Assembly (NCBI GenBank): GCA_026387935.1
Contig: JAPLKU010000013.1
Location: forward strand, 124,001-188,000
Source: Gemmatimonadota bacterium
Lineage (GTDB): Bacteria > Gemmatimonadota > Gemmatimonadetes > Gemmatimonadales > Gemmatimonadaceae
Length of the DNA: 64,000 nucleotides
Direction of reading: 5' to 3'
The notes under the pieces were generated by a model, which searched no databases, had not been told where the DNA came from, and worked only from the letters and a program-made list of their open reading frames with translations. Below, one piece after another: positions 11,952 through 14,708 of the stretch (position 1 is the first letter of the stretch; every line of letters begins with the position of its first letter). The translations under genes and the position numbers were made by a program.

Positions 11952-12218
11952 ATGCCGAGCCGCAAAATCACGGTGGACGGAACTGCGTGGGAAGTGCTGC
12001 CATCCGGACATGTCACGCAGTACGACGGCGACGAGTTCGGCCTGGTGTTTCTGCGTGGATCGGGATCGTCGCGCGAGCTGCGCGTGACCCGGTATCGCCC
12101 GACGGCGACGCGTGGCCGCGAGCAGTCGCTTGCCGAACTGTCCGAGTCAGCGTTGCAAGACCTCTTCGCCTGCTCGCAGTCGAGTGAAACCTCGCCGGAA
12201 GGCGGTTACGCGCAGTGA
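11952..12218 (+). CDS. Small hypothetical protein
   Basis: 88 residues from the ATG at 11952, one base after the previous stop. Begins MPSRKITVDGTAWEVLPSGH. The N-terminal two thirds look like a small all-beta unit (GLVFLRGSGSSRELRVTRYR), followed by a helical tail (SLAELSESALQDLFACS). No family recognised. Its stop overlaps the GTG of the PHP gene. Possibly a partner of the 86-residue protein just upstream. Confidence 0.7.
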   Translation: MPSRKITVDGTAWEVLPSGHVTQYDGDEFGLVFLRGSGSSRELRVTRYRPTATRGREQSLAELSESALQDLFACSQSSETSPEGGYAQ

Positions 12219-12250
12219 GCGACGCAGTAAGCGAAGCAGTAAGCGGCGCG
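12215..12250 (+). repeat. Three-copy 12-bp tandem repeat at a start codon
   Basis: Units gtgagcgacgca (12215-12226), gtaagcgaagca (12227-12238) and gtaagcggcgcg (12239-12250). The first unit starts exactly on the GTG start codon and each unit adds four codons (Val-Ser-Asp/Glu-Ala type) to the N-terminus of the PHP protein. Confidence 0.85.
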
Positions 12251-13096
12251 GCGGGCGCGCCTGTGGAGCGCGGGAAGATTGACCTCCACGCACACACGAC
12301 CGCATCCGACGGCACCGCCAGTCCAGCGCAGTTTGTCGCGGCGGCCGTTGCGGCCCAGCTGTCCGCGGTCGCGGTTACCGATCACGACACCGTAGCCTCA
12401 GTTCCTGAAGTCACCCGGCTCGCAGAAGGCTCAGGTATCCGCGTGGTCGCCGGCGTCGAGCTTTCGGTGCACGACGCACAGGACCGCGAAGTGCACCTGC
12501 TCGGCCTGCATCTTGCTGATCTCTCGCTGATCGAGTCGGAACTCGAGCGGCTGCGTGATGCGCGTCGCGCGCGCGCAGTTCAGGTTGTGGAAAAGTTGAA
12601 TGCCGTCGGGGTGGCCATCACGATGGACGCAGTGTTGGCCGAAGCGGCCGGAGGTGCCATTGGCCGACCGCACGTCGCCCGTGCCCTGATGAACATGGGA
12701 GCCGTCGGTGGATTACAGGAGGCGTTTGATAAGTGGCTCGGCGGCGGCAAGGTGGCGTATGTCCCGAAGGAGCGGCTGCTCTTTGCAGACGGCATCGCCC
12801 TGATCCATAACGCCGGCGGCATCGCGGTCTATGCCCACCCCGGCTGGGAAGGCAATCGCGAGCGGATTGAACCGCTCGTCGCGCTCGGGCTCGACGGTGT
12901 GGAAGTGCGCCATCCAAGTCACGGTTCCGAAGACATCAAGCGCTTGAAGGCGTTGGTCGATCACTTCGGGTTGGTGCCGAGCGGCGGGTCGGACTGGCAT
13001 GGAGCCGGTGCGGGCCCGCGCCTGCTGGGCTGCATGAAGGTGAACCCCGAGTGGCTCGACCTTCAGCTCGCGCGCGCCGCTTCGGTGGCGATATAA
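12215..13096 (+). CDS. PHP-domain phosphoesterase (TrpH/YciV-like)
   Basis: 293 residues. PHP motifs are present in order: DLHAHTTASDG (about residues 23-33), VTDHDT (about 54-59), the central GRPHVARAL, VYAHPGW and the C-terminal GSDWHGAG. Metal-dependent phosphoesterases of this group act on nucleoside 3',5'-bisphosphates and short 5'-phosphorylated RNA. The GTG start overlaps the previous stop (GTGA); the first 14 residues (from MSDAVSEAVSGAAG) come from a 12-bp tandem repeat, and the conserved part begins at KIDLHAH. Confidence 0.9.
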   Translation: MSDAVSEAVSGAAGAPVERGKIDLHAHTTASDGTASPAQFVAAAVAAQLSAVAVTDHDTVASVPEVTRLAEGSGIRVVAGVELSVHDAQDREVHLLGLHLADLSLIESELERLRDARRARAVQVVEKLNAVGVAITMDAVLAEAAGGAIGRPHVARALMNMGAVGGLQEAFDKWLGGGKVAYVPKERLLFADGIALIHNAGGIAVYAHPGWEGNRERIEPLVALGLDGVEVRHPSHGSEDIKRLKALVDHFGLVPSGGSDWHGAGAGPRLLGCMKVNPEWLDLQLARAASVAI

Positions 13097-13098
13097 GC

Positions 13099-13872
13099 AT
13101 GGCGATGCGCGTCGGGTCGACGCGCGCGTCGACCCGACGCGCATCGCCGAGGACGCGGGTTGCCCTGGTCACCGGTGCCGGGAAGCGCGTCGGTCGCGCG
13201 ATTGCACTCGCGCTCGGCGCCGAAGGCTATCGCGTCGCCGTGCACTACAGCCGTTCGGCGGCCGGCGCCCGCGAAACCGTTCGCCTCATCCGCGCGGCAG
13301 GCGGTGAGGGGGCTGCGTTTCGTGCTGACCTCACGAGCTTAGGAGCGCCGAGCCGTCTCGTGAACGATGTGGTGAAGTCGTTCAGCAGGATCGACGTGCT
13401 GGTGAACTCCGCCGCATCAATGACACGCACACCGCTCAGTTCGGTGCGCGAAAAAGACTGGGACCGGATCTTTGCGCTCAACCTGCGCGCGCCATTCTTC
13501 TGCGCCGTTGCCGCCGCGCGGGCGATGGGCCGTCGTGGCGGTGCGATCGTGAACATCTCTGACCACATGGGTTTCGAATCGTGGCCCGATTTCGTTCCCC
13601 ACGGCGTGAGTAAGGCGGGTGTCGCGGCCATGACACAGGCACTCGCGGGGGCATTCGCACCTCGCGTGCGCGTGAACGCAGTGGCACCGGGATTTGTGCT
13701 CGCCCCAGAGGGATACTCGGCAGCAAAGTTGCGCCAGTTCGCGCGCGAGACGCCGCTCCGCCGAGTCGGATCGCCAGCCGACGTGGCCGATGCCGTTCGT
13801 TATTTCGTCAGAGCCAGGTACGTGACGGGTGAAGTGCTGTTCGTGGACGGCGGCCGGCACGGCGTGCGCTGA
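13099..13872 (+). CDS. SDR-family oxidoreductase (pteridine-reductase-like)
   Basis: 257 residues from the ATG at 13099 (an in-frame ATG at 13105 is equally possible). Cofactor motif TGAGKRVGRAIA starts near residue 22; NSAAS, then catalytic block VNISDHMG and the helix HGVSKAG, where the usual YxxxK tyrosine is replaced (H-G-V-S-K), an oddity also seen in some FolM/PTR1-like relatives. Ends with FVDGGRHGVR. The first 17 codons lie in a perfect 48-bp palindrome, so the start region of its mRNA should fold back on itself. Confidence 0.85.
   Translation: MAMRVGSTRASTRRASPRTRVALVTGAGKRVGRAIALALGAEGYRVAVHYSRSAAGARETVRLIRAAGGEGAAFRADLTSLGAPSRLVNDVVKSFSRIDVLVNSAASMTRTPLSSVREKDWDRIFALNLRAPFFCAVAAARAMGRRGGAIVNISDHMGFESWPDFVPHGVSKAGVAAMTQALAGAFAPRVRVNAVAPGFVLAPEGYSAAKLRQFARETPLRRVGSPADVADAVRYFVRARYVTGEVLFVDGGRHGVR
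13101..13148. repeat. Perfect 48-bp palindrome over the SDR start region
   Basis: Left arm 13101-13124 is the exact reverse complement of right arm 13125-13148, with no spacer: 24 of 24 pairs match, and the pairing breaks at 13100/13149. Centre is cgcg|cgcg, with a gtcgac core in each arm. It begins 4 bases after the PHP stop codon and covers codons 2-17 of the SDR gene. There is no T-run, so it is not a standard terminator. Confidence 0.97.
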
Positions 13873-13898: not shown

Positions 13899-14708
13899 AT
13901 GACCAGCGACACCGATACCGCACCTGTCCACTCCGACTTCGGCGTCGTCGTGGTCGTGGGCGGCGGATGTTACGGTTCGCAATACGTGCGCCAGCTTCGG
14001 CGCGCGCGCGCAGCGGGGAAGGCGACGTGGCGGACGGTGGTCGTCGTGGACCGCGATCCGGATTGCGCGCACGCGCGAGCCAGCGCGGCTGATCCGGCTG
14101 GGGCATCCGACCTCAGCGCTGCCCCCGACGCTTGGGCAGGCATCCGATTCGAGTGCAGCGAGTGGACGCCGTTCTTTGCCCGTTGGCTCGACGACGCGGT
14201 CGCCGCGCCGCAGGCGCACGTGACCGACACGATCGTGCCGTCGCCGCTCATGCCTCACCTGCTCTTTGAGTGGATGGTCACTCGCGCCCGAAACCGGTGG
14301 CCCGGAAGAGAGGTGGTCACTGAAGTCCCCGGCGAACTCGCCGGCGTTCCATGGCAAAAAGGCGGCGGGGATGGCACGCGTTATGCCAGTTACGCGACAT
14401 GGATCTGCCCAATCAACTGCATTGAGCCGCTCAAGTGCCCGCACACGGGCGGTCCGCGCGACTGGAGTTTTCACGAGTCGCTCCCGCGTGGGTCGGACTC
14501 GACGGCCCTCCTTCGTGTGACGCACCGCCACTATGGCGTCGGCATGATGGACGTTGCCGATGTGGTGGCCGCCGACGCGCTGATTCATCGCGAACTGCCC
14601 GCCGGTCGCACCGTGCGCGTCGCCACGGCGAGTCATTGCCACGGCGCAGTGGCCGGTATCAGAATGGCGGCGGCGGTATCGCCCGCTTCCCCTACTAGTC
14701 AGATTTAG
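13899..14708 (+). CDS. Conserved-looking hypothetical protein with nucleotide-binding-like N-terminus and Cys cluster
   Basis: 269 residues. The N-terminus has a hydrophobic strand followed by a glycine-rich turn (VVVVVGGGCYGSQYVRQL) and an acidic second strand end (VVVVDRD), like a Rossmann fold. Around residue 167 sits WICPINCIEPLKCPHTGG, three cysteines and a His spaced C-x3-C-x5-C, and the C-terminus has SHCHGAVAGI. Metal or Fe-S binding is possible but unproven. No family recognised. It starts 26 bases after the SDR gene and ends 51 bases before trxB. Confidence 0.78.
   Translation: MTSDTDTAPVHSDFGVVVVVGGGCYGSQYVRQLRRARAAGKATWRTVVVVDRDPDCAHARASAADPAGASDLSAAPDAWAGIRFECSEWTPFFARWLDDAVAAPQAHVTDTIVPSPLMPHLLFEWMVTRARNRWPGREVVTEVPGELAGVPWQKGGGDGTRYASYATWICPINCIEPLKCPHTGGPRDWSFHESLPRGSDSTALLRVTHRHYGVGMMDVADVVAADALIHRELPAGRTVRVATASHCHGAVAGIRMAAAVSPASPTSQI

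Follow-up and report, generated by a model that had tools for sequence, protein, structure and literature searches.

Perfect Palindrome at the Start of an SDR Gene

The start of an SDR gene in a Gemmatimonadaceae genome is occupied by a perfect 48-bp palindrome (positions 13101-13148) that is present in the sequence, is non-random and is unique within the data searched. It probably originated as a lineage-specific inverted duplication, made at the junction of a PHP gene and the SDR gene by DNA-polymerase template switching (quasipalindrome extension). The source genome is a 28-contig draft of 2.8 Mb, and the window (the whole stretch of 64,000 nt analysed here, to which all positions refer unless a locus is named) corresponds to positions 124001-188000 of the 273-kb contig C23.

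The upstream neighbour (12215-13096, forward strand) encodes a PHP-domain phosphoesterase resembling 3′,5′-nucleoside bisphosphate phosphatase or RNase RNM (Pfam PF02811, E 1e-12; best NCBIfam model NF041577, 175 bits, under its cut-off of 400). The SDR gene (13099-13872, forward strand) encodes 257 aa from an ATG at 13099 and matches Pfam adh_short/adh_short_C2; the closest NCBIfam model is that of pteridine reductase (NF006598, 221 bits, under its cut-off of 288). The nearest public relatives of the protein come from Gemmatimonadota/Gemmatimonadaceae assemblies, and the orthologs in the genus and family are 59-75% identical to it. The near in-frame starts are ATG 13099 and ATG 13105, and there is a GTG farther upstream, at 13051. 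Past the SDR gene, a frame of 269 aa (13899-14708) is without a Pfam or NCBIfam match.

All 24 of the 24 pairs in the palindrome match with a spacer of 0 nt, and the flanking bases, T 13100 and G 13149, are unpaired, giving sharp edges. Arm 1 (GGCGATGCGCGTCGGGTCGACGCG, 13101-13124) contains ATG 13105, and arm 2 (CGCGTCGACCCGACGCGCATCGCC, 13125-13148) follows it directly. The palindrome begins 4 nt past the PHP stop codon (TAA, 13094-13096), the G of ATG 13099 is its first base, and it covers SDR codons 2-17 (residues 2-17 of the protein). The first-pass annotation had thus described both the spacer-free pairing with abrupt edges and the placement relative to the two genes correctly. It had also called a chance origin extremely improbable, and the estimates agree: the expected number of such palindromes is ~4e-8 per 2.8 Mb genome at the sampled composition (63% GC), and still ~2e-5 if the region is taken at 80% GC.

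The encoded segment lies in the N-terminal tail of the protein. The Pfam adh_short match begins at residue 20, and an AlphaFold2 model built from a 13-sequence alignment has a pLDDT below 50 over residues 1-15 and its first strand spans residues 21-24; the palindrome therefore falls in a dispensable-looking part of the protein. This tail is variable, is predicted to be disordered and precedes the Rossmann fold.

No perfect inverted repeat (spacer 0-8 nt) with arms as long as these was found elsewhere in ~0.8 Mb sampled from the source genome, in 0.4 Mb from relatives within the genus or in 0.5 Mb taken from 80 public loci picked by SDR similarity. The runner-up, in the source genome, has 21 bp arms and a 5-nt loop, and the source-genome sample holds one other spacer-free repeat with arms of at least 14 bp (14 bp arms). 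The remaining long repeats in these samples have loops of 1-8 nt, save a few short-armed spacer-free ones. In a published survey, perfect inverted repeats of bacteria most commonly have a 4-bp spacer and cluster after gene ends (PMC13155455), so that a long spacer-free repeat within a gene start is unusual. Long perfect hairpins of the source genome besides the palindrome, probably intergenic, are located at L186:7320-7366 (contig C6), L176:4839-4880 (C1) and L182:13212-13246 (C5), with arms of 21, 19 and 17 bp and loops of 5, 4 and 1 nt, respectively.

Inner Structure of the Arms

Each arm holds its own inverted repeat of 7-8 bp with a 3-nt spacer, namely GCGCGTCG-GGT-CGACGCGC in arm 1 (13107-13125) and GCGCGTCG-ACC-CGACGCGC in arm 2 (13124-13142). 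The whole palindrome can be written as GGCGAT-(GCGCGTCG-GGT-CGACGCG)-(CGCGTCG-ACC-CGACGCGC)-ATCGCC, that is, as two tandem 17-bp units whose spacers, GGT and ACC, are mutually inverted. An inner repeat of at least 7 bp arises in 0.35% of shuffled arms (chance ~0.0035). In addition, the heptamer TGGCGAT at the 3′ end of the PHP gene (13087-13093, forward strand) recurs at 13100-13106 and is complementary to the ATCGCC that ends arm 2; more speculatively, it might have provided microhomology for a template switch.

The PHP-SDR Junction in Relatives

Matches to the SDR protein were found in 61/61 genomes searched, with a clear ortholog in most; the nearest available relatives share 72-75% SDR identity, and there is no close strain among them. 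In 10 of the 11 readable same-genus junctions, the SDR start overlaps the PHP stop by 4 nt (ATGA/GTGA); among the same-genus junctions, between 23 and 119 nt separate the PHP stop from the conserved RVALVTG. In the source genome, TAAGCATG leads into the palindrome instead of the 4-nt overlap, and by this comparison of sequences the junction is a rebuilt exception within the genus. A comparison of orthologous SDR start regions, which had been proposed as a check, turned up neither the palindrome nor a comparable fold at any of 24 other junctions, where the longest predicted stem is 10 pairs vs. 23 in the source genome.

The polarity of the duplication is suggested by one of these junctions. The SDR of relative G003 starts with ATG ACC CGA CGT GCG (MTRRA), and arm 2 reads TCG ACC CGA CGC GCA (STRRA) in the same frame; over GACCCGACG(C/T)GC, arm 2 and the G003 junction (locus L005) agree in frame at 11 of 12 nt, with a shuffle P of ~0.003 that is uncorrected for ~48 comparisons. 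A match of arm 1 with similar strength occurs in G005 (GCGCGTCGGG, P ~0.017), and the G003 junction resembles arm 2 more closely than arm 1. The parallel between MTRRA in G003 and STRRA suggests, though it does not prove, that arm 2 is the ancestral N-terminal coding sequence of the SDR gene and arm 1 its newer, inverted copy. The KRVG codons further downstream (13182-13193, GAAGCGCGTCGG) were considered as a source of the arm and discarded; they match at 11 of 12 nt, which by a rough estimate is not unexpected in a CpG-rich region. At the same junction of a genus relative (G014, locus L010), ATGAGCGTGCG is repeated in tandem in about three copies, and the junction therefore seems either predisposed to local rearrangement or able to tolerate it.

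Probable Origin by Template Switching

The features that speak for a template switch include the perfect pairing, which is more extensive than at this place in any relative, the sharp edges, the single copy, the rebuilt junction and the nested repeats with inverted spacers. In the proposed course of events, the ancestral genes probably shared the 4-nt ATGA/GTGA overlap that prevails in the genus, and the ancestral SDR start would have resembled the present arm 2. A small inverted repeat may then have led the nascent strand to change template during replication; after copying ~24 nt in reverse orientation it would have returned to its original template, so that arm 1 came to face arm 2. The 48 bp preserve the reading frame, TAAGCATG would have taken the place of the stop/start overlap, and arm 1 and its edge would have supplied the new start codons. 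The palindrome may have persisted because the residues it alters belong to the tail that precedes the Rossmann fold, which is variable and apparently disordered.

Related cases are known from several systems. In Escherichia coli, template switching turns quasipalindromes into perfect or more perfect ones (PMC7202029), and the thyA hotspot and lacZ reporters resemble the present case in that a small imperfect inverted repeat in a bacterial gene gives rise to a longer perfect palindrome; those cases, however, were observed as mutations, whereas the present one is known from its outcome, a palindrome that lacks a spacer. In coding genes of yeast, homogenisation of the arms and inversion of the spacer are signatures of template switching (PMC8604942). 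As in yeast, there is a perfect inverted repeat within a gene and a spacer in both orientations (GGT/ACC); the yeast ancestor is known from strains, whereas here the ancestor is deduced and both orientations adjoin on a single molecule. Perfect inverted repeats also lie within the coding sequences of mitochondrial genes of Nematomorpha, where they are numerous, reach 284 bp and occur in conserved protein regions, in contrast to the single repeat in a non-conserved tail described here (PMC6649704). More generally, template switching has been proposed as the source of hairpins of tens of bases that are beyond the reach of ordinary mutation (PMC8794818).

The missing spacer speaks against this origin, since simple fold-back within one strand does not yield it directly; a switch between strands, or more than one step, would be required. 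A stepwise reconstruction of the event is impossible because the nearest relatives are as distant as noted above. Among the four readings that the first-pass annotation had put forward (a dimeric-protein site, a translational switch, an inserted palindromic element and an inverted duplication), inverted duplication is nevertheless the best supported; the match behind the ancestry of arm 2 is short, and we infer the polarity of copying and the template-switch mechanism. If this origin is right, the junction is a compact example of template switching that rebuilt a bacterial operon junction, with one or a few steps adding codons, relocating a start codon and creating a strong mRNA hairpin. It would also mean that regulation need not be the reason for a perfect palindrome located at a start codon; the palindrome opens no new system.

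Alternative Explanations

The palindrome could instead be a hairpin selected for regulation, in which the SDR start is hidden unless the PHP gene is translated or a factor opens the structure. The very stable mRNA hairpin anticipated by the first-pass annotation is borne out by prediction: the RNA would form a 23-pair stem (counted from the neighbour of G 13101) with a 4-nt CGCG loop at approximately −50 kcal/mol, its base ~4 nt past the PHP stop, with fold z-scores of −4.5 to −5.3. Moreover, it sits where the stop of one gene meets the start of the next in the same orientation, which is a known setting for structure-based coupling (PMC12548453). However, none of the 24 other junctions is comparable (z −2.2 to +1.7, against −5.3 for the source genome in the same comparison), and a conserved cis-regulatory RNA hairpin was not detected on folding them, since the structure is not kept in the orthologs. 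The self-complementarity of the CGCG loop and the exact 24/24 identity also exceed what an RNA hairpin needs. A translational switch is thus physically plausible, given the stability of the predicted hairpin, yet it is conserved in no relative and therefore shows no sign of selection; nor is a switch needed, because the 4-nt overlap, a common coupling arrangement, is already present in most of the genus. We regard a selected hairpin as unlikely.

An assembly or library artefact, such as a chimera formed by fold-back or a hairpin resolved wrongly during assembly, must be weighed because the palindrome is known from a single record in a 28-contig draft, and fold-back artefacts are known to yield perfect palindromes. 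Such an artefact normally returns into the same flank; here, the flanks are collinear with those of relatives (the PHP end on the left and the SDR body on the right) and the reading frame is kept. The site also lies more than 130 kb inside the 273 kb contig, and one short read can hold 48 bp. These points make an artefact, too, an unlikely explanation.

Perfect dyads, and a 17-bp repeat in two tandem copies, would be in keeping with an operator for a dimeric regulator, or with two operators in tandem, each CGCGTCG-N3-CGACGCG, at a distance of 17 bp. This idea of a dimeric-protein site gained no support: the genome contains no exact copy of the inner dyad beyond these, a scan limited to sigma-70-type promoters detected no promoter-like site near the palindrome, and the dyad arrangement is absent in relatives. 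At 1-2 mismatches the inner dyad has 141 matches in the genome, a count that is uninformative because the control pattern was the same dyad. An operator is accordingly improbable. Among other known signals, the only Rfam models matched were those of miRNA hairpins, all under their gathering scores, and an intrinsic terminator was rejected because the stem is followed by GAGGACGCGG and not by a T run.

A short mobile palindromic element of the Rickettsia palindromic element (RPE) or REP/MITE type, inserted in frame, is very improbable and as a reading largely refuted: the in-frame position at a gene start and the sharp edges do recall in-frame insertions of RPEs, which likewise are palindromes read in frame within protein genes (PMC2229807), but those are 105-146 bp long with many dispersed copies, whereas the present palindrome has 48 bp, is unique within the data searched and has no directly flanking target-site duplication evident in the sequence. 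The search for the 24-bp arm in the genome and its relatives, also proposed earlier, bears this out: the arm is single-copy in the source genome at up to 3 mismatches, a facing pair of arms is absent from the 288 searched genomes of the order, and viral contigs gave no exact match, so that a dispersed element is excluded within the reach of these data. Arm matches with 2-3 mismatches are scattered over 61 other genomes of the order. A 53-base match to a plasmid of Gemmatirosa kalamazoonensis lies in unrelated long frames and is non-palindromic there, and was therefore set aside as a match of composition.

Expected Effect on Translation

The predicted hairpin would be expected to act on translation. 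In the library study of Chemla et al., as cited in PMC12548453, structure located just downstream of an upstream stop codon correlated negatively with coupling, and ribosomes finishing the PHP gene would open the base of the stem; lower, PHP-dependent expression of the SDR gene is therefore expected. Structure-dependent translational coupling shares with the present junction a hairpin between the stop and start codons of co-oriented genes, and differs from it in that the hairpin here is unconserved and its effect is a prediction (PMC12548453). A stronger version, in which one template switch replaced the ATGA overlap by the spacer-free hairpin, inverted a CAT into the ATG of the new start and made SDR translation strictly dependent on that of the PHP gene, seems doubtful. 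We infer that the most likely outcome is the simpler one, in which the hairpin lowers initiation at the SDR gene and makes its translation dependent on the PHP gene.
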